Positions 1,077 to 35,657 of a stretch of DNA of 44,714 bases are shown piece after piece. Made by a program: the position numbers and the translations under genes. Numbering within the stretch: the first letter of the stretch is position 1; each line of letters starts with the position of its first letter. The notes below the pieces were generated by a model. The model worked only from the letters and a program-made list of their open reading frames with translations, was not told where the DNA came from and did no database searches. Origin of the DNA: a virus. The stretch is taken from positions 1 through 44,714 of the IMG/VR virus record IMGVR_UViG_3300023109_000041, one strand, 5' to 3'.

Positions 1077-4000
1077 CTATATTGTTGTTATTATAAAGGC
1101 TAAGAGTTCATTATATCTTACTCCAAGCCTAGTTTGTTCTACACCATCATCATCTTCCCAAGTGCTAGAGATAAACATCCCATAATCACTTGCATCCAAT
1201 CCTTCTGCTGTAAATGCATCTTGTAAGTCTTGTGCTATGACTCCAAAATGATATCTAGCTGTTTCATCAGAATCAGAATTATCATCTTTTTCTGCTACTG
1301 AATCTTGCCATCTAAATCTTCTTATTAAACCTTTACACGCTGTAGCTACTCTCTGCTCTGCATCTGTTAAGGCTTGTATATCTTGTTTTAAATTTCTATC
1401 TGAAGTTTGAATAGTGCCATTGGTTGCATAGATATCATCAAAACGTACTGATGAACTTCCAAGATCAATAGCATTGTCACTATCTTCTCCATTTGTACCA
1501 CAAGGCAGGATAGCTTTATAAGTAATGTAGGATTCAAATTTAAGACCAGTGCTGAAAGTTGATATAAAGAAATTAGACTCTGTTTGATCTACATGACCAA
1601 TTTGCCCTATATTAGTTCCTATACTACTCAAGAATTGTAAATAACGCCCTTCGTTAGTAGTGCTTGTATTTTTTACAGATAAAACAGGATTAGTTGCACT
1701 GGATTTAGCGTGATTTATTGTAGTTGAGCCTACTGCGTTAATAGTGCCATCATTAAATTCCATTGATGTACTACCGCCAAAACCAACTATTTTAGTTATA
1801 AAATCGTCATCATTTACAGCACCTACCAATAATTTACCACTTGAAACTCCTAATACTTGTGTTTGTAGTCCTGAAAGTTTTACTGAATTAGCTGTTACAT
1901 CTCCTGAAAGGTAAAGGTCTTTGAATTTAGCATCAGACTTACCTATATCAATAGCACTATCATTAGCAGCATTGGTTGTAGTGTTCCAAGGCATAAGTTG
2001 CGAACCAGCTTCTCTAAATCTTAAACCTGCAACACCTGTGCCTATAAATAAATCAGTAGCAGAAGTACCAATAGAGCCAACTGTTGCTGAGTCCTTTCTA
2101 AATAAAGCAATGTCTCCATCGCTAGTTTTTCTATTAAGTAATAAAGGCAAATCACCATCTCTAACAATAGAAACAAAATCATTAGTGCCATCTATTCTTA
2201 TTCCGTTTGTTGTATTGTCTGCAACAGTTTTACCAAATAAAGAAATGCCTGTACTTGTAATTGCACCACTAGAGATAGTTCCTATGTTGGATAAATTACG
2301 AGCATCACTAAGAAATTCAGTTCCACCCATTTGTAATGGCTCTGTAAAATTAATATGATCATTTGCTACTTTTAGTCTAACCGCACTTTCAGCAAATTTT
2401 GCTACATTACCTGCATATATTTTTACAGTACCTGATGAACTGTTTGCACCTAACCCTAAGTCTTGACTAACACCATTACCACTATTTGTTTGTCCTAAAA
2501 ATGGTCTATTGGTTTCAGTTGCACCTATTCTCTCACCAAACTCAATAAATGAATTTGAATTAGCTGTACCATCTCCTATTGTAAGTTTGTCATCTATAGT
2601 TACATCACCTGCAAAGGTAGCCTTACCACCTTCTGACATATCAAGAGTTAGGGCTGTGATGGTATTGCCATTGTCTATACCTAAAAACTTAATATCTTTG
2701 TCACTGGTGTTAGACATAAGAACAAGATTGTTATTACCATCGTTTTGAATGCTACCTAGCGTTGTAGAGCCATCGTAAAACAACCAATCTCCACCATCTG
2801 CATTTAATTCAATATCTCCACTTGAATCTATTGTAAAGTTACCTGTAGTATTATTTATTTCTCCACCTGCACCATTATGGAAAATTTGCATGTCATTATC
2901 TGCACCAAACTGTAACTGACCTGAATCTGAGTTTATATCTATAGTTCCACTACTTGTAATAGCACCACTATTGATAGTTCCTGCAAAGGTAGCGTTGCCA
3001 TTAGTATCTAATTGAAGCCTAACTGCTGGAGCAGAACCATCAAATACACGAAAGGTTCCACCATAGTTATCAATGTTAATACCTTCATTAGTCCCTGCCC
3101 CTGTAAGAAAAATCTCTCCACCCTCAAGACCACTTGTAGCTCCATTAACTGTTATATTGCCTGATGAGATATTTCCTATGTTGTTAAGATTACGAGAGGA
3201 GTCTATTACTGTTGTGCCTTGTATTGCAATACCACCACCATTTGCTAAGAATGTAATATCAGGTGTTGTTGATGCCGCACTTTGTCCTATATGGAATTCT
3301 AATGCTTCACCTGCATTAGTTTTTATATGTGCGGCTTCATTAGCACCACTACCTGTAATACCTATTCTAAATGTAGCACCTTGTGTATTACTAATTACAA
3401 GTTGTGATGCATCCCCTGAAAGCTCTTCATTTATAGTTAATATTCCTGTTGATGTAATTGCACCACTATCTATAGTTCCTACATCTAAATTATAATTACC
3501 ATTTGACCTAACTGCCCAATCTTTCCAACCAGTACCTCCTGCATTTAAAACACGCAAATTATTTCTTGTATATAAAAAACTATATGCTTGTAAATAACCA
3601 TTTGCTGTAATATCGCCAGTAGAAACTATATTGCCTGAGCTTATATTTCCCGAATTTATAGTTCCTATGTTGGTTAGATTACGAGATGAGTCTATTACTG
3701 TTGTACTACCAATCTTTAAATGACCACTAGATGTAAGATTTACAACCCCTTGTATTGTCACATCATTGCCTCTAGGATTTATAAGAACACCTGCTGAAGA
3801 GATCACCAAATTACCATAACTTGATGTATCTCTGTTATATGCAAGTATATGTGGTTGTGTACCTGACACCCCTATCTCAAGAGCCATGCCTGTGTAATCA
3901 GTTGTAGCAGTAGCGTTATACCATCCCGTTGCTCTAATTTGTCCTGCTGACCTTATATCTCTTTGAAAGTTAGAAATATCTGAACTCGTAATAGCACCAC

Positions 4001-7000
4001 TAGAGATAGTTCCTATATTAGTAAGATTACGAGAGGAGTCTATTACAGTAGTGCCTCCTAAAGCATAAGAGCCAGAAACATTCCAAATACCTGATGCACT
4101 AAGTTTCCCATATACACTGCCACTAGCATTTGCAAGAAGTGCGATACTTCCATAAGATAAAAACTCCATAACACTACCAGTAGCAAAAATATAACCTTTA
4201 TTAGCGTTTCCATGTCTAAAACCTATTAAAGAACTAGAGACTCCATCAAGGTGAATAGTTGCTCTATTAGTCGTACTCCAAGGAGAACTTGTACCACTTA
4301 TACTTAAGTTGTGACTATTACTTCCTAAATCCGAAGCTCTAATAGCATCATTAGAGATAGTTCCTGCAAAGGTTGCTACACCACTTTCAAAAATTGTAAG
4401 TAGATCAGAAGCACTGTTATTTTTACTTACAATAAATGCTCTATCAGTTTGATTATTATCCGTATCAATATCAATACGAACACTTGTATTTGATTGAATC
4501 CAACCACCAACACTGGGGTCATTTAAAGTAAGTTTCCCTGTACTTGTAATAGCACCACTAGTGATAGTTCCTATGTTAATTAAATTACGAGAGGAGTTTA
4601 TTACACCTGTGCCACTAATACTTAATGAGCCTACATTAACATTGGCGAACGCACTATCCGTTTGATTATATACATCTAGACCACCACCTGTGTTGGCGTT
4701 CATTCTTACTACATCATGTGATGAAGAATATTGTGTTGCATACCATTTATTGTTTTGCAGATAAACACCATAACTTGAATTTGTAGATGTTCCGCCTACT
4801 CCAATCACACCTGAGAAGGTGGAGTTACCTGTACTTGTTATAGCACCACTAGAGATAGTTCCTGTAAAGGTAGCGTTGCCTGAAGAATTTAAAGTAAATA
4901 CCGGACCTGTACTTCCTTGTCCATTTTCTCTAACACCAAATTTTAAACCATACCCAAAATCTCCTGAATTTGCATTTTCTTTATATCCTTTAATATAAGA
5001 ACCGCCACTTACAGCACTTGTTCCTTGATAATAACTAGAAAAAACAATAGAACCGCCTGTGTCTGCGGCTAAACTTCTTGTATCAACTAAATACAGGTTA
5101 GAATTACCGCTTGTAGGAATATTTGCTCCACTTCTGCGACTATCTATTAAGCCACTAGAAATAGTTCCTATATTGGTTAAGTTTCTGCTTAAATCAAACC
5201 ACTTAGTAGAACCCATATATAAATCGCCATCTGACTTAACAGCGAAAGTATCAAATCCACTTGTTTGATTATAAATTCTAAACAGATCATCGCCATCTAA
5301 TATATACCTTGCATAAAGACCTGTATTTTTAATATCAATACTTGCCTGTCCATTAGAAACATTGTTGTTAATGGTAAGTTTTGCCACATCTTTATTAATG
5401 GCTATGTTGCCCGTAGTATCTAATTCTCCAGTAATTGAAGCACCACCGCTAGTTGTGGCTAGTTTGGTAGAGCCATTTGTTGCAAGTTCTATTTGATAAC
5501 TTGAACTACTTGTATCAAGTTTAAGGTTTTGACCTTGACCTACAACTTTTGCACTATTAAATATTCTAAATTCTTTAATACCTGATTCTTGTGCATATAA
5601 TTCATAAGTTGCTGTTCCTGTATTTGAAAGTATTTGGAGTGGATATTGACTTTGTATTCTTGCTTTCCAAGTTGTTGCAGGTGCTACACCAATACCAACC
5701 TCTCCATTTATTGTTGCATCAGATATATTGGTTAAATTACGAGAGGAGTCTATTACAGTTGTAGTGCCAATTTGATATCCTGAGTCTGCTTTTACAAAAC
5801 CTGCAAGGTAAATATCTTTCCACTTATTATTACTCCAACCTAAACTAATATCACTCGTATGAGCAGTTGCAGTCATACTTTTAGGATGAATACATCTATA
5901 AGCAGAATTTGGTTGAAATGTTAATCCTGCTTCTTGATTACCAATAGAAATATTATCCATTTCAACACTGCCGACAGTCGTTCCACTTCCCAACGAGGAA
6001 ACTCCTGTGCTTGTAATAGCACCACTAGAGATAGTTCCCAAAGAAACATCCATGCTTTTACCAGTTTCAACTAACTTATACCAACTACCCCAAGTTCCTC
6101 CTATATCAGCACGTCTATGCCATATGTTGCCATTATCAGTAAAACCTAATGCATGAGTATCGCCTCCTGTTGCATCCTGCCATTGTTGGAAAAGCATTTG
6201 ACCATGAAAAGTGCCACCATCTGATAAACCATCACCATTATTATTTGCTTTAAAGTCAAATCTTGCTATTCTATCTGAAAAATTTGTTGATGTTGCAGTG
6301 TTTCTTGTGTCTTGAACTCTATAACCAACAGCATTTACAATATTAGCACTTACAGTATCGCTACTTGTTATAGAACCACTAGAGATAGTTCCTATGTTGG
6401 TAAGGTTTCTTGAGGAGTCTATTACAGTGGTATTATTCATTTGAAAATTACCACCACTTGTCATTCTAAAGGTATTAGCATTGCCACCATTAGTTCTAAA
6501 AGTAATATCTTCACCTGTAGCAGAGCAAAGATATAATCCATCATTAGCATTATTAGCACCTAAAATTCTATTATGACCATTTGTAGTGCCACTAAAAGAT
6601 AACATTCCATAACCACCACCATAAGTTCCATCTTGTTGTAGTGTCATACCACCATTAAGATTCAAAATCTTTCTTGAGGAGTCTATTACCGTAGTGCCAT
6701 TTATTTGTAAATGTCCAGTTTTTAAGTTTAAGTTGCCATCATTACTAATTCTAACCGCTTCTTCTAAAACAGGACTTCTCCCTTGTTTAGCTGTATAAAA
6801 TCCCATCCCAACCTGAGCACCATTACTGTACTCAGTTATACTTTTAATGCTTCCGCCAATACCTCCTGTAGCAGAGGCATCATTTGAGCCAAAGTTTAAT
6901 TCAGAATTTACTTCGCCATTAGCTGAAACACTAGTATTACCGCCAGTTATTAATACAGAGCCTGTAACAGCATTTGGTGCGGCAAAAGTTCCAAGAACAC

Positions 7001-8096
7001 CTGATATATTGCCTGTACTTGTAATAGCACCACTAGAGATAGTTCCTGTAAAGGTAGCATTTCCATTTTCACCATCAATCGTGAATACTGAAGTACCTGC
7101 ACTTGAAGTGCCACCATGTTTTACAATTTTAAAGTTTGCTGTATCAGTTTGATTATTATTTGAATCAAGATTAAGTATGATTTCTCCATAAGAGTTAATT
7201 CTTATATCATCAGTACCCATACTTGAAATAGCATGTTTTAAATTTCCATCTCCATAAAAAGATATATATCCGCTTCTTGGTAAGATTATCTTTTCATCCC
7301 CAGTATCACTTGTTCCAGTTAAGTCTATATCACCTGAAGTTGTAATAGCACCACTAGAGATAGTTCCTATGTTAGACATATTCCTAGAAGAATTAATAAC
7401 CTGAACATTGCCTATTTTTAAATTACCACTTATATCTATATCAGAACCACTAATATAAATTCTTCCATAACCACCCTGCCCTAGAACTAATCTATTCGTA
7501 GAAGTTAAGATTACATCTGATGAAAGACTACCAACTACACCACCTGCACCTAATGAACCTGAGCTTCCTCCACCACTATCAAAAGCTAGTTGTACATCAT
7601 TCCAAGTAAGATCAGCTTCACCATTTATAGTTGTAGAACCACTTGCAGTTAATATTCTATTATCAGCAAAGTTAGTGATACCTGAAATTAAACCTGAATC
7701 AGCACCCCATTCTAGGGTAGTTCCTGTAGATGGTACTTTTAAAACTTGACCTGCTGAACCTATGCTGTTGGGTATAGTGAAGGAACTGTTGGAGATAGTT
7801 CCTGTAAAGGTAGCGTTGCCACTAGTATCAATAGAAACACTAGGTGTAGCACTTGTAGCTGATTGCCCTATATGAAATTCTAGGGTTGAGTCTGTTCTTA
7901 TGTGTGAATTTGCAGTACCACTACCAATGATACCAATACGCATGAATGAACTGCCTGATTGACCATTTGTAATGGTTAATTGACCTGTATCACCACTTAT
8001 TTGATCTGATATAGATACAGTTCCTTGATCAACTGTAGTGTTACCATTTTGGACAATTAGTCCATTTTTAATTCTAAAGTCTTTTTGTGTTGCCAT
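1077..8096 (-). CDS. Long repetitive tail fibre with C-terminal S74 self-cleaving chaperone
   Basis: A 2,339-residue protein, largest in the window, expected to be a trimeric receptor-binding fibre. Most of the chain is built from repeated beta-rich units joined by linkers of the form VIDSSRNLTNIGTISSGAIT (about ten copies) and by FTGTISSGAIT variants. The last 110 residues form an intramolecular chaperone / peptidase S74 domain: it starts with SDRNLKQDI, where Ser and Lys fit the catalytic pair, and contains the conserved YHFGVIAQDLQ segment. In this family the domain drives trimer folding and then cuts itself off. The fibre lies just after protein J, whose C-terminal half uses the same repeat style. 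The internal repeats make it prone to length change by recombination and to misassembly. Confidence 0.9.
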   Translation of the reverse strand: MATQKDFRIKNGLIVQNGNTTVDQGTVSISDQISGDTGQLTITNGQSGSSFMRIGIIGSGTANSHIRTDSTLEFHIGQSATSATPSVSIDTSGNATFTGTISNSSFTIPNSIGSAGQVLKVPSTGTTLEWGADSGLISGITNFADNRILTASGSTTINGEADLTWNDVQLAFDSGGGSSGSLGAGGVVGSLSSDVILTSTNRLVLGQGGYGRIYISGSDIDISGNLKIGNVQVINSSRNMSNIGTISSGAITTSGDIDLTGTSDTGDEKIILPRSGYISFYGDGNLKHAISSMGTDDIRINSYGEIILNLDSNNNQTDTANFKIVKHGGTSSAGTSVFTIDGENGNATFTGTISSGAITSTGNISGVLGTFAAPNAVTGSVLITGGNTSVSANGEVNSELNFGSNDASATGGIGGSIKSITEYSNGAQVGMGFYTAKQGRSPVLEEAVRISNDGNLNLKTGHLQINGTTVIDSSRKILNLNGGMTLQQDGTYGGGYGMLSFSGTTNGHNRILGANNANDGLYLCSATGEDITFRTNGGNANTFRMTSGGNFQMNNTTVIDSSRNLTNIGTISSGSITSSDTVSANIVNAVGYRVQDTRNTATSTNFSDRIARFDFKANNNGDGLSDGGTFHGQMLFQQWQDATGGDTHALGFTDNGNIWHRRADIGGTWGSWYKLVETGKSMDVSLGTISSGAITSTGVSSLGSGTTVGSVEMDNISIGNQEAGLTFQPNSAYRCIHPKSMTATAHTSDISLGWSNNKWKDIYLAGFVKADSGYQIGTTTVIDSSRNLTNISDATINGEVGIGVAPATTWKARIQSQYPLQILSNTGTATYELYAQESGIKEFRIFNSAKVVGQGQNLKLDTSSSSYQIELATNGSTKLATTSGGASITGELDTTGNIAINKDVAKLTINNNVSNGQASIDIKNTGLYARYILDGDDLFRIYNQTSGFDTFAVKSDGDLYMGSTKWFDLSRNLTNIGTISSGLIDSRRSGANIPTSGNSNLYLVDTRSLAADTGGSIVFSSYYQGTSAVSGGSYIKGYKENANSGDFGYGLKFGVRENGQGSTGPVFTLNSSGNATFTGTISSGAITSTGNSTFSGVIGVGGTSTNSSYGVYLQNNKWYATQYSSSHDVVRMNANTGGGLDVYNQTDSAFANVNVGSLSISGTGVINSSRNLINIGTITSGAITSTGKLTLNDPSVGGWIQSNTSVRIDIDTDNNQTDRAFIVSKNNSASDLLTIFESGVATFAGTISNDAIRASDLGSNSHNLSISGTSSPWSTTNRATIHLDGVSSSLIGFRHGNANKGYIFATGSVMEFLSYGSIALLANASGSVYGKLSASGIWNVSGSYALGGTTVIDSSRNLTNIGTISSGAITSSDISNFQRDIRSAGQIRATGWYNATATTDYTGMALEIGVSGTQPHILAYNRDTSSYGNLVISSAGVLINPRGNDVTIQGVVNLTSSGHLKIGSTTVIDSSRNLTNIGTINSGNISSGNIVSTGDITANGYLQAYSFLYTRNNLRVLNAGGTGWKDWAVRSNGNYNLDVGTIDSGAITSTGILTINEELSGDASQLVISNTQGATFRIGITGSGANEAAHIKTNAGEALEFHIGQSAASTTPDITFLANGGGIAIQGTTVIDSSRNLNNIGNISSGNITVNGATSGLEGGEIFLTGAGTNEGINIDNYGGTFRVFDGSAPAVRLQLDTNGNATFAGTINSGAITSSGTIDINSDSGQLQFGADNDMQIFHNGAGGEINNTTGNFTIDSSGDIELNADGGDWLFYDGSTTLGSIQNDGNNNLVLMSNTSDKDIKFLGIDNGNTITALTLDMSEGGKATFAGDVTIDDKLTIGDGTANSNSFIEFGERIGATETNRPFLGQTNSGNGVSQDLGLGANSSSGTVKIYAGNVAKFAESAVRLKVANDHINFTEPLQMGGTEFLSDARNLSNIGTISSGAITSTGISLFGKTVADNTTNGIRIDGTNDFVSIVRDGDLPLLLNRKTSDGDIALFRKDSATVGSIGTSATDLFIGTGVAGLRFREAGSQLMPWNTTTNAANDSAIDIGKSDAKFKDLYLSGDVTANSVKLSGLQTQVLGVSSGKLLVGAVNDDDFITKIVGFGGSTSMEFNDGTINAVGSTTINHAKSSATNPVLSVKNTSTTNEGRYLQFLSSIGTNIGQIGHVDQTESNFFISTFSTGLKFESYITYKAILPCGTNGEDSDNAIDLGSSSVRFDDIYATNGTIQTSDRNLKQDIQALTDAEQRVATACKGLIRRFRWQDSVAEKDDNSDSDETARYHFGVIAQDLQDAFTAEGLDASDYGMFISSTWEDDDGVEQTRLGVRYNELLAFIITTI
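2270..7410 (-). repeat. About ten dispersed copies of the fibre linker repeat
   Basis: DNA coding for SSRNL-x-NIGTISSGAIT recurs roughly every 300-900 bases on the minus strand. On the plus strand it reads as variations of 'gcaccactagagatagttcc' next to 'tacgagaggagtctattac'. Copies differ at several positions (SSRNM, SSRKI, LSRNL, DARNL), so they are old, diverged duplications and not a recent tandem array. The intervals between copies are unrelated, unlike a CRISPR array. They code for short linkers between globular fibre segments. Confidence 0.85.
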
Positions 8097-8131
8097 CTTC
8101 CCTATCCAATGTGCTTACTATTATTATGTCA

Positions 8132-11100
8132 TCAAGCTTCTATTCCTGATACATTAAATTTAAATTCTGTTGAAGCAGACTGATTGGGGTCAATCAATAA
8201 TCTTATATTTCCACCTGAAATATCGGCATCAAAAGTTGCTAACGAAGTATTTGAAAATATCGTTGCATATTCTGTCATATAGACTGTAGTTCCATTATGC
8301 GTCAAAAGTATCTCTGTTGCATGAAAATTAGTGCTTAATTTAATTTGTACTAATACTTTAATAGTTCTATAAGCTGTTGCAGAAGCAAGTATTCTATTAG
8401 TCTGTGAAGCACTTGTAGTCGTTAGAGATGCTGTAGCTTTGTTTACTAATGCATCACCACCTATTATTTCATCATTAAATTGTGTCTTAGGTGTAACAGT
8501 AAGCTTTTCTCCATTTAATGAACCATGACCGTACTGTATATATGCTTGATCTGCACCATCATTAAATACTATTCTTGGAACACCACTAGAGCTTGTTTTA
8601 AATCTTATTATAGGCTGTGCATCAGTTGCATTACCTATCTCTAGCACAGCACCTGCATTTGCTATTTTAAGTGTTGTATTGTCATAAGTTAGGTTTGTTT
8701 CAGCTTCAATAGAACTAGCACCATCAGAAGTAATAATTCTGCCACTGCCTGTAGCACCGTTTGTATAGTTTGTAACAGTATTAGAACTCCAACTTAAAAC
8801 ACCTAAATCTGTTGATGTAAGAACAGCACCACTGTTAGATGGTGTGTTTGTAGGCAAGGTATAAGTGCTACTAACACCCAAGCTAGATGGAGATTTTATA
8901 GCTACATACTCATCACCAGTATTCGCAGTTAATTCATAAAATCTTACTTCGCTATTATTCCCAAGGCTAATATTTCCTGCAAAGGTAGCGTTGCCTGACT
9001 GATTGATAGTTAATAGTTCGTTACCAGTGCCAACAGAATGTTTGTAAAGATGAAACTGGTTGTCTGTATCATCGTTGTTGTCATCAATGACCAAACGAAT
9101 ATCACGGGCTGATCTTATCTCTACTTCTTTTCCAACGTTCCCATCAATAATTAAGGAAGTTCCATCACTGAGTATTTGCCCTTCAGGTACAGTAATAGTT
9201 CCTGAAGAGGTGATTGCACCAGAGTTGATAGTTCCTGCAAAGGTAGCGTTTCCTGATGAGTTAATGACCAACCTATCATTAACACCTATAGTACCACCCG
9301 ATGCAATTCTGAAAGAACTATCAGAGTTATCACGACCCATTGTGTAAGCTGAAGTGCCATTACTAGCAAAAGTAAGTTTCGCATCACCTGACGTTGTAGT
9401 ATCAATTTTTACTTCTGAATTACCTGCTACAGACCTTTTAAATAAAGCCATTTCATTATTTAAGCCTACTACATGAATACTATGAGTAAGTGATGTTGCT
9501 CCAATACCCAAAGACTCAGCACTAGCATCCCAAAATAAAGCTTGGGTAGTTCCTGTATCTTCGTAGAAGGAGATGTCTCCGCCTGTAGCAAATTTAACTC
9601 TATTAACACCATCAGTTTTAAAAGTATGATTTTTACCTGCTGGTGCATGATAAACACCGCCATCATTATTAACACTATCTATACGAACTTGTGATAAACC
9701 ACCTCTTTGGAACTGTAAGCCTTGGCCGCTACTTCCATTTATAATTGCATCAGTACTTGCATCAACAGTCAAACCATCACTTGTAACTGTTCCTGTTACG
9801 TCTATAGCACCCGAATTGATAGTGCCAACAGTTATATTTGGCGTACCTGATAAACCTATTGCAGTTATACCTAGTGCATTTATTTCAGCTTGAGTTTGAT
9901 CTGTAGTTGCACCTGCTTCTATACCATCAAGCTTAGTTCCATCAGTTGCTATGTCTCTGCCATCAACTGTGCCTGTTACAGTTATATTTCCGTTAAAAGT
10001 AGAATTATGATTTACAACTAATGTGCCATCTGAATTGATCTTAATCTCATCACCACCACCTAAACCATTTTGTCTTATCCAAAAGTTTCCACCATCAAGT
10101 CCCATGTGGACTGTGCTAGAGCCTTCAGTAAAAACAATATAAGGTGCAATAGAATCAGTAATATTAACTCTATTACCTGTTAAAGCACTACTAGAAGTTA
10201 TAGCACCTGTAGCATCAATAGCACCTGAATTGATAGTTCCAATATTTACAAGATTTCTATCAGTTGTAAAGAACTGAGTTCCAGTCATGTATAGACCATT
10301 TACACTTCTAAATTGAACTGAATTCCAATCTTTAGAAGCATCAAAACCACCTATGTATAAATTATTAGTTCCATCAGTTGTTGGTCTTATATAACTAGTT
10401 GCCCTATTAAACTCTAAACCATAACCCCTTAAGTCTGTATAAGAACCATCACTAAAATAAGACCTTATAGCTCCTGAAGTTGAACTATCACCTGAAATTA
10501 TAGAACTTTGTGATATATGTTGATTACCTATATCTAATTGTTCAGCACTAGAATCCCAGAAAAAACCTTGATTTGTGCCTGTTGAGTCATAGAAAGATAT
10601 GTCTCCGTTGGATGCTATTTTTTGACGTATGGTTGTGCCACCTGTATCAAATCTTAAAATACCTGCTGTATCACTTGCTCTTATATAATTAGCACCAGCT
10701 CTTGAAAAAGTTTGAATATAACCATTATCTTGTATTTCCCAAGTTCCTGAAGTTCCTCCACTTGTCAAACCATCAGCAGTTACTCTTCCTGTTACGTTTA
10801 TTCCGCTTGATGTTGTGGCTAGTTTTGGTGAGTTGTCATAGTAAAGAGTAACTGCACCATTAAGTTGCATATCAGCAAGTATCTCTGTTGAATTATCATT
10901 TCTAAATTTAAAACCTGAACCATTAGAAGTGAAAACTAAATCACTAGAACCTCTATCTCTAATATAACTTGGTCCATCTTGATCATGGTATATTTCAAAA
11001 TCACTTCCTGTTCCAAATATAGCTTTGACGTTATCTGCAAAATTAAGATTGTGTGAAAAGTTAAAGCTATCGTTAGTTGTGTTCCAAGTTAAGGTAGCAT

Positions 11101-14068
11101 CTTGTGTAGCACTTACAGCATCTTGAATAGTAATACCTGCACCATTTGCATTAGCTGAAGTATCACCAGTGCCATAATTTAAAGTAATGTTTTTGTCTTT
11201 AACATCTAGGTTGGCTGTGTCTATAGTTGTGGTAGTACCTTGTACATCTAGGTTGCCCTCTATTACAACATTAGATTCAAAAGTAGCATCATCCTCAAAT
11301 GTTTTAGAACCTCTTACTGTAGTTCCTATATCTAGTGTAAATGTAGCATCACCTGAAGTAAAAGAAGCACCACCTGTTAAACTGCCACCTGATGTATTTA
11401 TAGTTACACCTGTAATATCTCCTGCACCTGTATCTACTACTGCACCGTTCCAATATAAAGAACCACCTACGTTATAAAGTTTGTTAGTAGTAGTAGAAGG
11501 TGCTGAACCTTGTGATACCTCTACTATTGGTGTTGTAGTTGAGCCTGTAATTGTTGTATTTGCTAAAGTTACAAAAGGATTAGCATAAACTCCATCACCA
11601 TTTTTAACTTCAAAGGTAGCCATTGTTTGTTCTATAGGTGTTCCTATGGAACTATCTGTTGCTCTACCCTTTAATACAAGTTTTGCTATACCTGTGCTGT
11701 TACCATCAGCACCACCTTTAGCTAAACCCCAATCAGCATCAATAGTCAAAAATTGATTTGTCCAATCTCCACCAATGTATTCACCAAAAAATAATTGATA
11801 CCTTTCTGTATCTGAATTTTGAAAACTTGTAACACCACCTATAGCACCATTACCACTTGTTAGAAAAGTGTAATTTTCGTTATCTTCACCACCACCTGTG
11901 CTTTTAAATTTATTAAGAACTAAATTTTTACCAAGTATATTTAAAGTATCAGAAGTACCTATATTACCACCACCTGTTGAATATGATATGGGTGCAGAGC
12001 CTGTAGTGACACTTACTTCTGATGTTAAGGCACTAAATACGTTGTTAGATGAAAAATGTCTAACTGCAACATAATAAGTTGTACTTGCTTTAACACCATT
12101 GATAGATTCTTTTGCTGTGCTTTTACCTACTATAAAAGAACCAATATAAGTACCTGATGTAGTTCCATAAAATACTTCTGTACCCTGAACAAGATCATCA
12201 GGATTATTAGTCCATGAAACATTAAGATCAAACCCTGTAATCTCTAATGTGGTTGCTACAGCTAAACTTGTAGGTGGAGATACTGCAAAACTACCTGTAG
12301 AAACGCTTGAGCCTTCGTCTAACGGATTTGTATAACTACTAGATGCAAAGTTATACACAGAAGAATCAATCTCTTTAAGGTCAAGCCTTGTAGCTAAAAC
12401 TGGAACACCATCTTGGTCTATAACTTCTAAATTTGTGCTTAAAACTTCAAATGTTTTGTTGGTATATCCTAATCTTTCATTTGTTAGGTAAACCCAATCA
12501 AAGGGTTGTAATTGCATAAAAGCAATATTGCAACTTACAGATAAACTTGTTTTTTTTCGTGTATGTAATAAGGCTGTTCTTTGTAGCCTTTGTGCCATCG
12601 TAGTGGTATCTGTGAAAGGTAATTGTATTTCTAATGACTTTTTATAGTTAGCTGATGATTCACCACTAGGAGTGTCGTTTGCTAAAAGGGTGCTATCTTC
12701 ATATAAAGGCGAATCTGTAGCTACATAGTTATTATTTGCATCAACATATACAGCTTTTACGCTGTTAAATGTTTCTCCACTTGATTGTGCTGTTTGTACG
12801 GTTATAGGTGCTAGAAGATTGTCATCTGTAATAGTCATATTAGGTGATACATTTGCACCTGCGAACATTACAAATTTACCATCTATATAAGATAATTTAC
12901 CTGCACAAGAACTTAATAAGCCTTCTATTACACCACCACCATCTGCTGACATATTAGTTATACCATTAGCTGTATATGCCCTTTCTGTAAAGGTTAGCGT
13001 TGTGCCATTAGCTAAACTTACATTTGCAGTAAGAGTTAATTGTAAGTTAGTTCTTTTCAAGACATATACATCATTTGATATACCTGTACCTGTCACTTTT
13101 TGACCAACATCAATTAAAGTTACTGTATCTGCTATAGCAAGATTAACTATTAGAGAACTACTTACAGCACCACTGACAGTTGCTGTTGTAATAGATTGAT
13201 CGCCTTCACAAGTATTAGCGGCTATTTGAAAACTACCTAAAGCAGTAGTGTCATTAACTTCACTAGATGTAGCTTTAAGACCGTAAGTTGTATTAGTTAT
13301 ATAATCCCTTACGCAAAGTGCAGGGTTTGAGCCTATTTCTTTTCCAGTGCTATCTATAAATGCTGTTTCATTACTTCTTGGGTCAAAAACCTTTTTACCT
13401 TTAACTACAAAAGACATAGGTGGTATACCACCACCAAAGGCTTCTGAATCAAAGACCATTTCAACAAATACATAAGATATGCCTATAAATTTATCTGTAT
13501 TACCTAAAGATGTATTAGAAATAACATTATTGTTTGCTGTTGTTTGTGAGCCATCTAAAAATACATATCTAAGCAAAGAATTTTGTACACTAAATTTATT
13601 ATCGTTGTCACTATTAGTAAATCTATTATTTGTAGCGTACTCAAAACCACCATTTGATGTTGTAGTTAGAACTTCATCATTTATTAAAACTTCTTCTAAA
13701 CTTTCTACTTCGTGACCTGCTAATACAACAATCATTGATAATTTATATTTATCCGTACCCGAAGTCTCTATATGAGTTATTGTTCCACCAACCCTAGCTT
13801 TACCATATATTATTTGTCTAGGAGCTGTAGCTGTTCTTGTAGATACTTTAGAGCCAAAGTTTTCACCAACAGCATCAATGCCTTTGGACATTAATCCTTG
13901 TGCTAATATAGAAGCACCTGACATAAGAGCAAGAGTTGAAGTTTTAACACCTAAGAAAAAAGCACCAGTAGCACCTGCTACACCACCAATTCCAAGCAAA
14001 GCTAAACCAGTTGTTACAGCAAATATAGTCAATCCTACTTTTACTGCTGTTTCAATAGCCTTAGACAT
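8132..14068 (-). CDS. Tail tip protein J-like with fused fibre-like C-terminal half
   Basis: A 1,978-residue protein. The N-terminus is hydrophobic and glycine-rich (about residues 10-60), then comes a region typical of host-specificity / tip attachment proteins (lambda gpJ): APRQIIYGKARVGG near residue 83, followed by a hub-like part with YITNTTYGL. A fibronectin type III-like domain lies around residues 590-690 (VSWTNNPDD ... TTYYVAVRHFSSN). The second half carries fibre repeats, including a DFEIYHDQDG segment and FAGTINSGAIT units shared with the next gene. It should form the tip below the tail tube and start the central fibre. The start overlaps the DUF6950-like gene by 8 bases. Confidence 0.85.
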   Translation of the reverse strand: MSKAIETAVKVGLTIFAVTTGLALLGIGGVAGATGAFFLGVKTSTLALMSGASILAQGLMSKGIDAVGENFGSKVSTRTATAPRQIIYGKARVGGTITHIETSGTDKYKLSMIVVLAGHEVESLEEVLINDEVLTTTSNGGFEYATNNRFTNSDNDNKFSVQNSLLRYVFLDGSQTTANNNVISNTSLGNTDKFIGISYVFVEMVFDSEAFGGGIPPMSFVVKGKKVFDPRSNETAFIDSTGKEIGSNPALCVRDYITNTTYGLKATSSEVNDTTALGSFQIAANTCEGDQSITTATVSGAVSSSLIVNLAIADTVTLIDVGQKVTGTGISNDVYVLKRTNLQLTLTANVSLANGTTLTFTERAYTANGITNMSADGGGVIEGLLSSCAGKLSYIDGKFVMFAGANVSPNMTITDDNLLAPITVQTAQSSGETFNSVKAVYVDANNNYVATDSPLYEDSTLLANDTPSGESSANYKKSLEIQLPFTDTTTMAQRLQRTALLHTRKKTSLSVSCNIAFMQLQPFDWVYLTNERLGYTNKTFEVLSTNLEVIDQDGVPVLATRLDLKEIDSSVYNFASSSYTNPLDEGSSVSTGSFAVSPPTSLAVATTLEITGFDLNVSWTNNPDDLVQGTEVFYGTTSGTYIGSFIVGKSTAKESINGVKASTTYYVAVRHFSSNNVFSALTSEVSVTTGSAPISYSTGGGNIGTSDTLNILGKNLVLNKFKSTGGGEDNENYTFLTSGNGAIGGVTSFQNSDTERYQLFFGEYIGGDWTNQFLTIDADWGLAKGGADGNSTGIAKLVLKGRATDSSIGTPIEQTMATFEVKNGDGVYANPFVTLANTTITGSTTTPIVEVSQGSAPSTTTNKLYNVGGSLYWNGAVVDTGAGDITGVTINTSGGSLTGGASFTSGDATFTLDIGTTVRGSKTFEDDATFESNVVIEGNLDVQGTTTTIDTANLDVKDKNITLNYGTGDTSANANGAGITIQDAVSATQDATLTWNTTNDSFNFSHNLNFADNVKAIFGTGSDFEIYHDQDGPSYIRDRGSSDLVFTSNGSGFKFRNDNSTEILADMQLNGAVTLYYDNSPKLATTSSGINVTGRVTADGLTSGGTSGTWEIQDNGYIQTFSRAGANYIRASDTAGILRFDTGGTTIRQKIASNGDISFYDSTGTNQGFFWDSSAEQLDIGNQHISQSSIISGDSSTSGAIRSYFSDGSYTDLRGYGLEFNRATSYIRPTTDGTNNLYIGGFDASKDWNSVQFRSVNGLYMTGTQFFTTDRNLVNIGTINSGAIDATGAITSSSALTGNRVNITDSIAPYIVFTEGSSTVHMGLDGGNFWIRQNGLGGGDEIKINSDGTLVVNHNSTFNGNITVTGTVDGRDIATDGTKLDGIEAGATTDQTQAEINALGITAIGLSGTPNITVGTINSGAIDVTGTVTSDGLTVDASTDAIINGSSGQGLQFQRGGLSQVRIDSVNNDGGVYHAPAGKNHTFKTDGVNRVKFATGGDISFYEDTGTTQALFWDASAESLGIGATSLTHSIHVVGLNNEMALFKRSVAGNSEVKIDTTTSGDAKLTFASNGTSAYTMGRDNSDSSFRIASGGTIGVNDRLVINSSGNATFAGTINSGAITSSGTITVPEGQILSDGTSLIIDGNVGKEVEIRSARDIRLVIDDNNDDTDNQFHLYKHSVGTGNELLTINQSGNATFAGNISLGNNSEVRFYELTANTGDEYVAIKSPSSLGVSSTYTLPTNTPSNSGAVLTSTDLGVLSWSSNTVTNYTNGATGSGRIITSDGASSIEAETNLTYDNTTLKIANAGAVLEIGNATDAQPIIRFKTSSSGVPRIVFNDGADQAYIQYGHGSLNGEKLTVTPKTQFNDEIIGGDALVNKATASLTTTSASQTNRILASATAYRTIKVLVQIKLSTNFHATEILLTHNGTTVYMTEYATIFSNTSLATFDADISGGNIRLLIDPNQSASTEFKFNVSGIEA

Positions 14069-31021: not shown

Positions 31022-31861
31022 ATGACATTTGATAATAAAAGAACATTTGGAGTAGAGATTGAGTTCATTGGTCAAAACAATCAAAGAACAACTAACGAAG
31101 AAATTAATCAATACCTTGAGAGACAAGGTGCTGATTTTAGAATGCACACTGCATACTACAGTGATACTGATGCAACTATATGGAGGCTAAAAACTGATTC
31201 ATCTGTAAATGGTAGTGGGTTTGGTCTTGAGGTTGTATCTCCAGTATTGCAAGGTGATACAGGTTATAGTGATCTTATGTTGGTTTTAGATGCAGTAAAC
31301 AACACTGGTGCTTCTATAAACAGAACTTGTGGTCTTCATGTGCATGTAGGTGTAAGTGATTGGGGAATAAAGCAGTTTAGAAATCTTTACAAAAGATACG
31401 CTAAGTTTGAAACAGCTATTGATTCAGTTATGCCTTCAAGTAGAAGATTGAGTAACAATGACTACTGTAATTCTACAGTTAGAGCTTTTGGTCAAACACT
31501 TGGACAAGCTTTTGAAACAATCAACTCATGTAGTACTGCTAGACAATTAGCAAGTCAAATAGGTACAAGATACACAAAGCTAAACATACAGTCATTTTGG
31601 AAACATGGAACTGTTGAGTTTAGACATCATGCAGGTTCTACTGACAATGACAAAATATCTAACTGGTTAAAGGTTTGTTTATCAATGGTTCAAGCCGCTG
31701 ATTCAAACAGAGCAATCAAAGTAAATAGATTTGATAATGTTAGTGAGTACAAAGATAAAATAAGCCTAATGTTAAAAGGTTTAAGTAAATTAGAAGGTTC
31801 TTTAATAGAATCAAGCACAAAAAGATTTTTCACAAAAAGGAGAAAAGCATTATGCAACTAG
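31022..31861 (+). CDS. Amidoligase family enzyme (COOH-NH2 ligase)
   Basis: A 279-residue protein of the glutamine synthetase-like amidoligase family. Motifs in order: FGVEIEF (9-15), WRLKTDSSV (54-62), LEVVSPVL (69-76), CGLHVHVG (103-110) and FWKHGTVEFRHHAGS (192-206). The Glu and His residues in these would bind metal and ATP. Members are predicted to form amide bonds between a carboxylate and an amine on peptides or cell wall material. A strong AAAAGGAG precedes the ATG. It is followed by a small gene and a gamma-glutamylcyclotransferase-like gene, a neighbourhood described for this family. The substrate is unknown. Confidence 0.85.
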   Translation: MTFDNKRTFGVEIEFIGQNNQRTTNEEINQYLERQGADFRMHTAYYSDTDATIWRLKTDSSVNGSGFGLEVVSPVLQGDTGYSDLMLVLDAVNNTGASINRTCGLHVHVGVSDWGIKQFRNLYKRYAKFETAIDSVMPSSRRLSNNDYCNSTVRAFGQTLGQAFETINSCSTARQLASQIGTRYTKLNIQSFWKHGTVEFRHHAGSTDNDKISNWLKVCLSMVQAADSNRAIKVNRFDNVSEYKDKISLMLKGLSKLEGSLIESSTKRFFTKRRKALCN

Positions 31862-32085
31862 AATATACAGTAAAAGGTGGTGGAATCCTTAGAGGTTTCA
31901 CCAAAGAAGATATAGCTTACTCATTATATGAGTTATCACTAGCACCAAGTTCCAGTTTTGATAATTGGATGCAAGGTACTAGCACTAGAATTAATACACA
32001 ATTTGGGTACAACATTAGTTATAACAACCCAACTGATTTTGTTAATGACCTTGCAAGACATGGTCTTATTATAAGGAGTTCGTAA
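31852..32085 (+). CDS. Small protein of the amidoligase module
   Basis: A 77-residue protein of unknown family (MQLEYTVKGGGILRGFTKEDIAYSLYELSLAPSSSFDNW ... NDLARHGLIIRSS). It lies between the amidoligase and the cyclotransferase-like gene, overlapping the first by 10 bases and the second by one base, with its own AAAAAGGAG 10 bases upstream. It has no membrane segment or catalytic motif that I recognise. The tight packing makes it a candidate substrate, carrier or partner of the enzymes; that is inference. Confidence 0.6.
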   Translation: MQLEYTVKGGGILRGFTKEDIAYSLYELSLAPSSSFDNWMQGTSTRINTQFGYNISYNNPTDFVNDLARHGLIIRSS

Positions 32086-32555
32086 TGTTTTATTTTGCCT
32101 ATGGTGCCAATCTTAATTTAGAAAACATGAAGTATAGATGCCCAAATGCCAAGCCTATAGTTAAGTTCTCTATGCCTAATTACAAACTAGTATTTAAAGG
32201 TGTTGCTGATATTGAGTACTGTGCCAATGAATCAGTAGAGGGTATGCTTTGGGAAATCACTGATAAGTGTGAACAAGCATTAGATATCTTTGAGGGTTAT
32301 CCCCATTTATATCGCAAAGAGTATTTTACAATTAAGATGGGTGGAAAACTTGCACATGATTTTGGTGATAATGCAGATGTTATGTTCTATGCAATGAATA
32401 GAGCAGACTATGGCGAACCAAACCAAAGTTATTTTAATTGTATTCTTGATGGTTATATTGCTAACAAACTAGACACAGATTTTCTTTATGATGCACTTCT
32501 CCATGCACAAGAAAATAATTCTATTTATAGATACGAATCTAAGTCTTGGAAGTAA
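32085..32555 (+). CDS. Gamma-glutamylcyclotransferase-like (AIG2/GGCT) protein
   Basis: A 156-residue protein with the GGCT fold signature: FAYGANL at 4-10 (the YGSNL glycine loop), RCPNA at 18-22, VEGMLWEI at 51-58 and FEGYPHLYRKE at 69-79, where Glu70 fits the catalytic acid. These enzymes release 5-oxoproline from gamma-glutamyl amines, and so can undo amide links of the sort an amidoligase makes. AGGAG lies upstream of the ATG. The pairing with the amidoligase suggests a make-and-trim pair working on one substrate. Confidence 0.85.
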   Translation: MFYFAYGANLNLENMKYRCPNAKPIVKFSMPNYKLVFKGVADIEYCANESVEGMLWEITDKCEQALDIFEGYPHLYRKEYFTIKMGGKLAHDFGDNADVMFYAMNRADYGEPNQSYFNCILDGYIANKLDTDFLYDALLHAQENNSIYRYESKSWK

Positions 32556-32591: not shown

Positions 32592-33128
32592 CTAATCAAA
32601 CTCTCTACCTTTAACATCAGGAACCCAACCTTTCGTAAATTCTTCTTGTGAACCTTTCTCTGTCATTGGTTGATAATCGTAAAGCCTATCTATTTCCTCT
32701 TGCTCCATTCCTAACAATTCAATAAGCTGTTCATCTGTATAATTATGTTTCTCTTTCATCTTCCTAACAATACCAGTCATGGGTAATATTCCATGATTAC
32801 CTCTTGCTCTATTATGAACAATGGTTGCACACATTTGTTGTGCTTCATCAACCACATCATCTAAAAAGACAACAGGAACATAACCATTTGTAAGATCAGA
32901 AATATCTTGATCTCCTGAAACAGTCCATCTATGGAAACCATCAACAATTTCATATGACTTTCTAATTACAATGGGTTGTGTCCACCCACTTAATTTAATA
33001 CTTGTTTTAAGCAGTTCTAACTCCACTGGTGCAACTTTGTTAGGGTTGTACTGGTTAGCCTTAAGCTTAGACCTTTTTACCCACTGCATAGCATTGATTG
33101 GTTGATTATTTTTACCTTTTTTGACCAT
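32592..33128 (-). CDS. ParB/sulfiredoxin-fold protein, IbrB-like
   Basis: A 178-residue ParB-like protein. Motifs: LKANQYNPN (22-30), LLKTSIKLSGWTQPIVI (39-55), IVDGFHRW (61-68), YVPVVFLDD (83-91) and HNRARGNH (105-112). The DGFHR segment is the ParB core, and the HNRARG segment is typical of IbrB. IbrA-IbrB pairs act together as regulators in E. coli and are widespread in phages. The gene is the last of the leftward operon and overlaps the IbrA-like gene by 17 bases, confirming the pair. Confidence 0.8.
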   Translation of the reverse strand: MVKKGKNNQPINAMQWVKRSKLKANQYNPNKVAPVELELLKTSIKLSGWTQPIVIRKSYEIVDGFHRWTVSGDQDISDLTNGYVPVVFLDDVVDEAQQMCATIVHNRARGNHGILPMTGIVRKMKEKHNYTDEQLIELLGMEQEEIDRLYDYQPMTEKGSQEEFTKGWVPDVKGREFD

Positions 33129-34326
33129 GTCTTTCTACCTCATATGCTTTTTTTTGTGCTGCATATTGTTTTTTATTACTAGTAAACATTGGTTGTTTAC
33201 GACCTTTGAAATCACCACGCATAGCTATACGCAATAAAAACTTCCAACCTATTCCTGACTCAGGGTGATGTGTTCCCAACATTGGTTCAGATGTTTTTTT
33301 ATAATGAATTCCTACAAATCCGTTGATGACTTCTGCAATTTTAGACCTATATGGTTCAGGGTGTTTATTTAAAAAGTACTGTATAAATTCTTCCCATGAA
33401 GTATCTTTTGGTTTATCAGGAAGTCCACCAAAAGCATAAAGCTCAGTGTTAGCATATCTTGCCGCAGTTGCACTGCCTGGCACTCTGTTTTGCATTTTTT
33501 CCCATAGTTTTGGAAAAGCTATAGAGTACTGCCACAGACCACGCATAGGTTCTTCTCCATATGGTGGTGCGCACCTTTGTTGTAGATGTGTAAGACCAAC
33601 TTTTTCTAATATGTCATAAGTAGTGTTGTAATCCCAACCAAACTTTTTTGGACCACTCCATACATCAACTGTTTTCATGTCATATATGGGACAAACTTTT
33701 ACACAGTTTGCTAATGCAGTTTTAGATTTCAGATTTATCATATAATCTTCATATCTTTTTTCGCTTGTTTGTAAGATTGTTCTGTATCGCATAAGACTTT
33801 CTTCTGACCTAATGCCCATTATAATTCCTACCTCGCCCCATTCCTGTGGTGGAAAAAGCAACCCATTGCATTCAGGTACTGTTGGTCTTTCATCAATGTT
33901 TCGCGGAAAGTTAGGAATGTCATCTAAACCTATAACACTTTCATGTGTAGGATATGGTCTGCACCATTTATCTTTATCTTCAGGTGCCCATGGCCACCAA
34001 TGGGGATGATTGCGACTGCAACCATTTCTATGTTTCACTGGTAAGCATAACCAGTTCATTTTTATTTCAGGAAGATCAGCAACCCTTTCTACATAATCTA
34101 TTGTTTCATATGGTATAGCTTCTTCATCAAAAAAATATACATGCAGTGGTAATTTGTTTCTTTCCTTTGCGACTTGTAATGTCATATTTAAACAAACTGT
34201 AGAGTCTTTGCCACCACTGAACATAACAACAACATTGTCAAAAATATCATATGTTCTGTTAATGCGTTCTAAAGCTAATGTGTATACATCTTTTTCTATA
34301 TCACGTTTTTTTGATACTATTCCCAT
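33112..34326 (-). CDS. PAPS reductase-family protein, IbrA-like
   Basis: A 404-residue protein of the adenine nucleotide alpha hydrolase / PAPS reductase superfamily. The PP-loop is SGGKDS (37-42); GIRSEES (171-177), ANCVKVCPIYD with Cys208 and Cys212, and RCAPPYGEEPMRGLW with Cys252 follow. The C-terminal third (WEEFIQYFLNKHPEPYRSKI, HPESGIGWKFLLRIAMRGDFKGRKQPMF) fits DUF3440 as in IbrA. The DndC pattern of C-x2-C-x9-C is absent, so plain phosphorothioation is not shown. It probably activates a substrate by adenylation; the product is unknown. It is coupled to the IbrB-like gene. Confidence 0.82.
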   Translation of the reverse strand: MGIVSKKRDIEKDVYTLALERINRTYDIFDNVVVMFSGGKDSTVCLNMTLQVAKERNKLPLHVYFFDEEAIPYETIDYVERVADLPEIKMNWLCLPVKHRNGCSRNHPHWWPWAPEDKDKWCRPYPTHESVIGLDDIPNFPRNIDERPTVPECNGLLFPPQEWGEVGIIMGIRSEESLMRYRTILQTSEKRYEDYMINLKSKTALANCVKVCPIYDMKTVDVWSGPKKFGWDYNTTYDILEKVGLTHLQQRCAPPYGEEPMRGLWQYSIAFPKLWEKMQNRVPGSATAARYANTELYAFGGLPDKPKDTSWEEFIQYFLNKHPEPYRSKIAEVINGFVGIHYKKTSEPMLGTHHPESGIGWKFLLRIAMRGDFKGRKQPMFTSNKKQYAAQKKAYEVERHGQKR

Positions 34327-34386
34327 AATTTAACCTTCTCTAAGGCTCATGACTGGCTTCTGTGTACTAAGTTAATACCTTACAAC

Positions 34387-35079
34387 CTAGCTTTTTCCAT
34401 GATCTATGTACGTTCTATTTAACATTGGGTGATTTGTGTCTGTTGGTCCAAAGTCTGAATCAGGATGATATGCAATTATATCCATATATGATTCAGAAGT
34501 TCTAAAGCTATGAACCTCGCCTTCTTCTAAACAAAACATCATTCCTTTTGTTAAATCTTCTTCCCAACCTTCGCGTTTACCTTCAGGTTTTTGAAATGCT
34601 TCACCTTTGCCACCTATGACAATACCCATTCTAATACTTGGGTGTAAGTGTTGGGTTTGGTCTATCCCCATCGGAAAATGTAAATAGTTTAAACATGGGT
34701 CGCCTAATCTTGGTGGCATAACTAATAAAGAATCTGTACATCCATCAATATAAGACAATCTCCCATTTTTTTCAGAGTGACCGACCATATCTATGCCTCT
34801 AAAACCATATCTAATAATTACAAATAATTGACCTTCTTCTAACATTTCTATAGGTGTTTCACCATTTAAAGGTGTTTTTATTGTGAAAAAATCATCTGCA
34901 TTTATTGTCCAAGTTTGCTCACCATGTATTGCAAAAGAACCTTTAGTGCAAAACCCATACATATTTCCTACCGTATCATCTATAACAAAATCATCTGATA
35001 TAGAGATCATTTCAGTTGGATACATGGTATCTTTTTGGTCTATTATATCTGCATGTTGTGGATTGGGTATAAGTATCAT
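34387..35079 (-). CDS. Bicupin-like protein in the ParB/PAPS block
   Basis: A 230-residue beta-rich protein. The C-terminal cupin has motif 1 as HFPMGIDQTQHLHPSIRMGIV (134-154, with His144 and His146) and motif 2 as EEGEVHSF (185-192, His190), a plausible metal site. The N-terminal half (GSFAIHGEQTWTINADDFFTI) looks like a second, degenerate cupin. Cupins are often dioxygenases or epimerases, but small-molecule binding is possible. It overlaps the second ParB-like gene by 4 bases (ATGA) and is 60 bases from the IbrA-like gene. The function here is unknown. Confidence 0.7.
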   Translation of the reverse strand: MILIPNPQHADIIDQKDTMYPTEMISISDDFVIDDTVGNMYGFCTKGSFAIHGEQTWTINADDFFTIKTPLNGETPIEMLEEGQLFVIIRYGFRGIDMVGHSEKNGRLSYIDGCTDSLLVMPPRLGDPCLNYLHFPMGIDQTQHLHPSIRMGIVIGGKGEAFQKPEGKREGWEEDLTKGMMFCLEEGEVHSFRTSESYMDIIAYHPDSDFGPTDTNHPMLNRTYIDHGKS

Positions 35080-35657
35080 TTGTGTTTCCTCATTATGTAA
35101 AGCAGTGCGTTGTTTTTAGTTTGTAGGTCTTTTTCATCCCTTACTGTTTCTAAAATTTTCATTACCTCTGATCTATCTTCTTTTTCTAAATAAAATGTAA
35201 TTGGTTGCTGTGTGGTTAAATCAGAAGCACTATAACCAACCTCAGGTTCATCTATCTTAACATCACTAAAGCTTGTGTCAAAAGGCGTAAATTCAACTTC
35301 TTTTGGTTGGAAACCTGCAACATCAATACCTTGCAGTTTTTCTAACTCTAATTCAAGAATTTTATCTTCCCATTGTGTCAATTCACCAACTTTATTGTCA
35401 GCTAATCTGTAAGCATTAATATTTATTTCATTATCTTTGTAAACTGTACAAGGAACTTCATCAATACCAAGTTTCTTTGCTGCTAATAGTCTTGTATGAC
35501 CTACGACTATTACATTATTTTCATCTATTACAATTGACTGTTGAAAACCATGTTTATGTAATGATTTAGCAACTTCATCAATTGCACTTTGTGAAATAAC
35601 TCTTGGGTTTTGAAAGTAAGGAACAATATCTTCTGTTTTTTTATAAATGATATCCAT
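35076..35657 (-). CDS. ParB-like nuclease-fold protein
   Basis: A 193-residue protein. Motifs: VPYFQNPRV (12-20), AKSLHKHGFQQSIVI (30-44), VVGHTRLLAAKKLGIDEVPC (51-70) and AYRLADNKVGELTQWED (82-98). The second and third are the ParB core. This subfamily is usually fused to or next to a DNA methyltransferase; none is present here. The C-terminal 75 residues are a separate alpha-beta piece (TFYLEKEDRSEVMKILETV). It starts the ParB-cupin-IbrA-IbrB block, 39 bases after the primase-helicase stop. Confidence 0.8.
   Translation of the reverse strand: MDIIYKKTEDIVPYFQNPRVISQSAIDEVAKSLHKHGFQQSIVIDENNVIVVGHTRLLAAKKLGIDEVPCTVYKDNEININAYRLADNKVGELTQWEDKILELELEKLQGIDVAGFQPKEVEFTPFDTSFSDVKIDEPEVGYSASDLTTQQPITFYLEKEDRSEVMKILETVRDEKDLQTKNNALLYIMRKHK

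Follow-up and report, generated by a model that had tools for sequence, protein, structure and literature searches.

The window analysed here, meaning the whole stretch of 44,714 bp, is a linear IMG/VR virus record from an uncultured marine phage; it encodes tape measure, head, tail fibre, endolysin and terminase/portal-type genes, identifying the virus as a tailed phage. Comparison of its DNA with cultured phages returned one short 68% match and nothing else. On the minus strand, a gene for a replication-initiator-like protein is followed by that of a primase-helicase and then by four genes encoding, in this order, a ParB-fold protein (ParB1), a two-barrel cupin (bicupin), an IbrA-like PP-loop ATP pyrophosphatase and an IbrB-like second ParB-fold protein [Table 1]. 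ParB1 begins 39 nt after the end of the primase-helicase gene and overlaps the cupin gene by 4 nt; 60 nt separate the cupin gene from that of IbrA, which overlaps the IbrB gene by 17 nt. The initial annotation had described four co-directional, mostly overlapping genes behind the primase-helicase, with two ParB-fold genes flanking the cupin and IbrA. Both statements are borne out by the open reading frames, by overlaps at two of the three junctions, and by the presence of ParB_N domains in both ParBs and of PAPS_reduct and DUF3440 domains in IbrA. In high-GC contigs, where length was the criterion for calling open reading frames, errors are possible; a six-frame search recovered the key features. 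The dN/dS values of the four genes against their relatives range from 0.03 to 0.16, and all four are under purifying selection.

Table 1. Genes and conserved sites of the four-gene cassette
Feature	Position	Strand	Evidence
ParB1, ParB/Srx fold, 193 aa, first cassette gene	35076..35657	-	PF02195 above cut-off
Bicupin, 230 aa	34387..35079	-	AlphaFold, Foldseek, homologue conservation
Cupin H144 and H146 codons (HxH), predicted metal ligands	34642..34650	-	H144 100%, H146 99% conserved
Cupin H190 codon, predicted third metal ligand	34510..34512	-	100% conserved
IbrA-like PP-loop ATP pyrophosphatase, 404 aa	33112..34326	-	PAPS-reductase-like domain PF01507 2.9e-10; DUF3440 PF11922 1.9e-10
IbrA PP-loop SGGKDS, residues 37-42	34201..34218	-	S37, G39, K40, D41 and S42 invariant, G38 >=90% in 60 aligned sequences
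IbrB-like ParB-fold protein, 178 aa	32592..33128	-	PF02195 1.8e-7; phrog_2159 2.8e-59
IbrB DGFHR motif, residues 63-67	32928..32942	-	D, G, H and R 100% conserved; no Cys at sulfiredoxin position

ParB1 resembles the ParB portion of phage-encoded DNA methyltransferases (phrog_498, E 1.4e-32; also phrog_620) and also matches the PADLOC MTase_II model (2.8e-20). Searches of the window for C5 and N6/N4 methylases gave no match. Both results agree with the earlier remark that a ParB of the methyltransferase-linked kind is present here with no methylase. IbrB carries the conserved motifs NPN, DGxHR and RHNRARGxH. Sulfiredoxins have their catalytic cysteine within a GCHR motif; IbrB reads DGFHR and ParB1 GHTR at this position, and a sulfiredoxin identity was rejected on the absence of this residue. 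A ParABS partition system was likewise set aside, there being no ParA partner (PF13614 was unmatched in the window in a search whose control matched in 14 genomes) and the full ParB architecture being missed by both proteins (TIGR00180, 31.0 and 24.1 bits vs a cut-off of 58.45). ParB folds bind CTP, ATP or GTP, and their fusion to phage methylases is common (PMC12704722).

The IbrA-like protein matches phrog_2302 (2.1e-80) and 215 cultured-phage records, among them a phage homologue annotated as IbrA (30% identity, E 1e-35). Adjacent IbrA-type (PF01507 plus PF11922) and ParB-type genes, the defining feature of the IbrA/IbrB pair, are found here. The AlphaFold model of the protein (pLDDT 91.7) has APS/PAPS reductase, FAD synthase, NcsA and LarE as its nearest solved folds in Foldseek. 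With its PF01507 match and conserved SGGKDS the protein has the SGGxDS-type PP-loop of CysH. PAPS reductases also bear a C-terminal catalytic cysteine motif, ECG(L/I)H, which is absent from IbrA, with no such conserved cysteine in 67 sequences; the NCBIfam cysH model scores 14.7 bits vs a cut-off of 165.1, and a canonical PAPS/APS reductase was rejected. Two cysteines only are widely conserved in these 67 sequences (Cys94, 91%; Cys103, 76%), and no cysteine set of the Fe-S type is conserved. Taken together, the retained PP-loop, the missing reductase motif, the two cysteines and the nearest folds fit adenylation rather than canonical sulfate reduction.

The same features bear on a sulfur-based DNA modification, in which IbrA would act as a DndC-like sulfurtransferase onto base or backbone, the ParBs would take the role of DndB, and the cupin would oxidise or handle a thiol. 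As in the Dnd, Ssp and type-4 BREX phosphorothioation systems, an enzyme of the PAPS-reductase superfamily is present together with ParB-fold proteins, DndB being of that fold (PMC12704722); the two conserved cysteines and the sulfur enzymes NcsA and LarE among the structural matches point the same way. The similarity of IbrA to DndC is however weak (PADLOC 1.2e-8; NCBIfam DndC 1.1e-5, far below cut-off), and its membership of the DndC/phosphorothioation family was rejected (TIGR03183, 24.5 bits vs 290.4; no desulfurase partner in the window). No DndD/DndE-type partners were seen in the window, which contains a bicupin instead and has no match to a cysteine desulfurase (PF00266) in a search whose control matched in 14 genomes, although a housekeeping enzyme could substitute. 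The initial annotation had named sulfur as one possible chemistry. Given that the window lacks a PF00266 match, IbrA a conserved Fe-S-type cysteine set and the ParBs a sulfiredoxin cysteine, we now consider such a chemistry unlikely.

The cupin is the least recognizable member by sequence, with a weak, sub-cut-off match to Pfam Cupin_2 and none in NCBIfam, PHROGs or PADLOC. Its single sequence found no match among PDB sequences, its profile retrieved generic cupins only, and three cupin queries against 50,697 phage records gave no match. AlphaFold predicts a confident two-barrel fold (pLDDT 95) whose Foldseek neighbours are the bicupins BacB, AerE and ureidoglycine aminohydrolase (TM about 0.6, 8-17% identity). 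With tblastn (E<=1e-3), 312 loci in IMG/VR and 106 in genome_contigs proved to hold relatives, and 80 from each collection were retrieved. The family shares the motifs GR(L)xYIDGCxD, QTxHxHPSxR and HPDSD, and H144, H146, H190, R150, C114, Y110, Q141 and H205 are 99-100% conserved in 119 diverse homologues. By analogy with other cupin folds, H144, H146 and H190 are predicted to hold a metal. Unlike BacB, AerE and ureidoglycine aminohydrolase, the protein has an arginine, the fully conserved Arg150, at the usual Glu/Gln ligand position and keeps the histidine set in one domain only.

A weak match of the cupin profile to RhaR-type sensor cupins raises the question of host or prophage gene control, with IbrA/IbrB as a regulatory pair and the cupin as its ligand-sensing domain, the more so as IbrAB activates prophage eib genes in E. 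coli ECOR-9 (Sandt 2002, as cited in PMC10434257). The cupin, however, showed no DNA-binding HTH, its invariant HxH/H pattern is enzyme-like, and an effect on transcription could itself stem from DNA modification. Reprogramming of the host, an option in the initial annotation, is accordingly retained here as a very unlikely explanation.

The initial annotation had regarded the cupin as an unusual fourth member of the block. A survey of viral cupin loci, drawn mostly from cupin searches and partly from IbrA searches and thinned to <80% identity, indicates that this is the usual arrangement among the uncultured-phage loci examined. IbrA lies within 4 kb of the cupin in 61 of 69 non-redundant loci, a fraction that is somewhat biased upward because the set mixes both kinds of search. 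The remaining loci have an asparagine-synthetase-like PP-loop gene (3/69), an AMP-ligase (1/69) or neither partner (4/69), and two of these four partnerless contigs end at or just past the cupin. Among the cupin-found loci alone (L092-L139), IbrA is missing only in L111, L113, L114, L116, L117, L120, L121, L135 and L138. From the side of IbrA, a cupin is present in 43/64 thinned viral loci, a set chosen by likeness to the IbrA of the window and hence no estimate for all IbrA genes. The cupin and the first ParB thus do co-occur with the IbrA/IbrB pair, contrary to the outcome that the annotation had named as speaking against its reading.

The exact order ParB-cupin-IbrA-IbrB on one strand recurs in 49 of the 69 loci, mostly in unrelated uncultured phages. 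Many cassette loci unrelated to the window phage have no matching primase-helicase and carry other terminases, and wherever such an unrelated locus was read in its entirety, terminase genes directly follow the cassette. Three genome hits are prophage-like (L240, L251 and L280), each of them a MAG, and the IMG number of L169 hints at an isolate genome. This identical order, the short or overlapping junctions and the purifying selection make it very improbable that the four genes are chance neighbours or moron genes gathered at an insertion hotspot with no joint function, even though the cargo between ParB and IbrA differs from phage to phage.

Sister phages, identified by searching with the primase-helicase of the window, provide a clue as to what this function might be. 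Sisters with 80-99% primase-helicase identity whose sequence reaches past this gene have the cassette, while those with 53-62% identity are mostly devoid of it, the exceptions being L302 and L303 at 62%. Beside the primase-helicase of cassette-less sisters lie a ParB 31-37% identical to ParB1 and genes for TAGT (PF20691, 2.7e-38), Tet_JBP (PF12851, 5.5e-27) or ADDT (PF18724, 8e-25), with a cytidylyltransferase and a kinase-like gene as further neighbours. In a record-level search, neither TAGT nor TET was found in any of 13 cassette records; TAGT or TET was present in nine of 11 sister records, none of which nine has IbrA, the number of independent sisters being smaller than that counted because several contigs are near-identical. 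One of the two sisters devoid of TAGT and TET (L325) has an IbrA gene elsewhere, behind two short genes, one of them with a weak DNA-methylase match. No examined record combines both kinds of system, and some sisters (L320-L323, L328) have sequence downstream of the primase-helicase yet neither system. The window itself has no match to PF20691 or PF12851, nor to PF18724 in a search where no control matched. The place of hypermodification genes in related phages is therefore occupied by the cassette here; we note that the replaced genes of the sisters are on the opposite strand, so that the slot is adjacent rather than an identical operon. Because this position is taken in the sisters by genes for enzymes known to modify DNA bases, decoration of phage DNA is the most likely role of the cassette. 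It resembles the TET/JBP-TAGT and ADDT loci in its related ParB, in its position beside the primase-helicase and in its row of several small enzymes, and differs from them in having a PP-loop ATPase and a bicupin and no dioxygenase, glycosyltransferase or amino-acid:DNA transferase.

The company kept by the cupin outside this arrangement is informative as to its activity. In bacteria, a same-strand asparagine-synthetase-type PP-loop gene lies within 4 kb of the cupin at 23 of 50 thinned loci, with IbrA at three more; the background rate of the PP motif elsewhere in these loci is 0.10 per 8 kb. AMP-ligase genes neighbour the bacterial cupin at seven loci, and in IbrA-less phages the cupin likewise adjoins PP-loop or AMP-ligase genes. 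A sugar-gene neighbourhood in Maricaulis was set aside, its genes being on the opposite strand and in one genus. That the cupin travels with adenylate-making enzymes suggests that its role is probably enzymatic, on a small group, and not that of a DNA-binding component. Its chemistry would not be specific to DNA, as the bacterial pairs, and a few phage ones, have no visible DNA-modification gene.

Loci that lack the cupin or have additional genes carry cargo in the interval from ParB to IbrA or immediately upstream of it. This cargo comprises sodium:solute symporters (L054-57, L143, L144, L148), TctC (L156, L157, L160) and NMT1 (L051) receptors, an aldehyde dehydrogenase with a small cupin (L152), SDR proteins (L062-065, L190), 2OG-Fe(II) oxygenases (L052, L143), a glutaminase-like gene (L198) and, at 14 loci, a second PP-loop protein. 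These look like genes for the supply or finishing of small molecules. The transporters in some IbrA loci would fit small-molecule metabolism equally well, and it is conceivable that the target is not DNA but a metabolite, which the cassette would import, activate and convert, for example through amidation of a sugar or amino acid; the ParBs would then be ATP-dependent enzymes akin to SerK-like kinases and not DNA proteins. The receptors, dehydrogenases, cytidylyltransferase and glutaminase-like gene of other IbrA loci, and the asparagine-synthetase-like and AMP-ligase neighbours of the bacterial cupin, are consistent with such a role. The exchange with TAGT, TET and ADDT and the methylase-type ParB point to DNA instead, and a location beside replication or terminase genes would be odd for metabolism, making this explanation rather unlikely in our opinion.

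We therefore favour the view that the four genes probably form a phage DNA-base hypermodification cassette, whose chemistry would most likely be one so far undescribed. Of the original proposal of a modification of phage DNA or nucleotides by sulfur or other chemistry, the DNA part has gained from the finding that unrelated phages inherit the four genes together and from the exchange with TAGT/TET/ADDT alongside a related ParB; the sulfur part has not. In the proposed scheme, ParB1 and IbrB would be nucleotide-binding ParB-fold proteins that bring the enzymes to phage DNA or gate them on it. IbrA would convert ATP to AMP and PPi, activating a base carbonyl or a small acid and joining a small group to the base, and the bicupin would prepare or reshape this group, probably via a metal held by H144, H146 and H190. 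The cassette would act post-replicatively on DNA already made, beside replication and before packaging, and the resulting modification would shield the phage genome from host nucleases. What we infer here about substrate, chemistry, target base, metal, order of steps and protective role builds on the genes themselves, their co-inheritance and purifying selection, the swap in sister phages and the partnership of the cupin with AMP-forming enzymes. With no base-anchoring enzyme (methylase, TET) found in the window, IbrA would need an unmodified base or help from the host. The cassette-type records are suggestive in this regard: a C5 methylase (PF00145) was matched in 0/20, the window included, and an N6/N4 methylase in 1/20, which is not the window. 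Tentatively, the cassette might exemplify a new hypermodification class that dispenses with a methylase or dioxygenase anchor: the PP-loop ATPase would activate a canonical base directly, the bicupin would make or finish the attached side chain, and differences in cargo (transporters, SDR, aldehyde dehydrogenase, oxygenase) would give rise to phage-specific side chains, some of them taken up from outside.

Among the closest parallels is the CmoA-CmoX-CmoY 5-carboxymethylcytosine system, in which the asparagine-synthetase-like AMP-forming ligase CmoY attaches glycine to carboxymethylcytosine of phage DNA, as demonstrated in 2025; ParB-domain genes often lie near CmoY genes (PMC12783734). Common to both are an AMP-forming enzyme of the PP-loop type and a ParB-domain neighbour in phages, and the bacterial relatives of the cupin partner asparagine-synthetase-like enzymes. 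The window differs in having no match to a C5 methyltransferase (CmoX), in an IbrA that is PAPS-reductase-like rather than asparagine-synthetase-like, and in its cupin, which has no counterpart in that paper. The IbrA/IbrB (YbdN/YbdM) pairs of phages and E. coli belong to the same families as the pair described here, which differs from the usual ones by two additions, a cupin and a methylase-type ParB. Among open-licence PMC papers, we found none on a PAPS reductase, ParB and cupin together in phage and no biochemical function for IbrA/IbrB; at least one phage paper lists an IbrA-type gene as an auxiliary gene of sulfur metabolism.

The cassette is small enough for expression in E. coli, which makes the question directly testable. 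If the proposed function is correct, many sulfur-metabolism annotations of IbrA-type genes would be mistaken and a class of DNA modification widespread among phages would so far have been overlooked; besides methylases, TET enzymes and transglycosylases, the editors of DNA bases would then include PP-loop enzymes.

Immediately past the cassette, on the opposite strand, lie Amidoligase_2 and gamma-glutamyl cyclotransferase (GGACT) genes, which nearly all cassette-bearing sister phages (relatives found through the primase-helicase) retain and which possibly form a second, peptide-type modification pair. The window also encodes a tandem pair of very large tail-fibre or spike-like proteins.

Locations of genes discussed
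Feature	Locus	Position	Size (aa)
Tail-fibre or spike-like pair	window	1077-14068	2339, 1978
Amidoligase_2 and GGACT	window	31022-32555	
Second PP-loop protein	L107	2296-3075	
AMP-ligase-methyltransferase fusion	L113	7639-9714	
Glutamine-amidotransferase-like	L198	700-1266	189

Other phage loci encoding IbrA, the PAPS-reductase-like PP-loop ATPase, carry in the ParB-IbrA interval or just upstream a gene for a sodium:solute symporter (L054-L057, L143, L144, L148), a TctC solute receptor (L156, L157, L160) or an NMT1 solute receptor (L051), seemingly unusual cargo for phages. At L107 and 13 further loci, IbrA is joined by a second PP-loop protein that is also PAPS-reductase-like but shorter. The glutamine-amidotransferase-like gene immediately ahead of IbrA in L198, whose product matches PF13522 weakly, below cut-off, hints that ammonia may serve as a nucleophile in some systems.

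Bacterial cupin-family members (L213-L292; Myxococcota, Bacteroidota, Methylococcales and others) adjoin asparagine-synthetase-like, stand-alone PP-loop or AMP-ligase genes, apparently an undescribed enzyme pairing. In phage locus L113, an AMP-ligase-methyltransferase domain fusion adjoins cupin and PP-loop genes.

Sister phages (L304-L306, L309, L313, L314, L326, L329, L332) carry TAGT, Tet_JBP or ADDT together with a related ParB, and provide a clean set in which to study the exchange of DNA-hypermodification cassettes.
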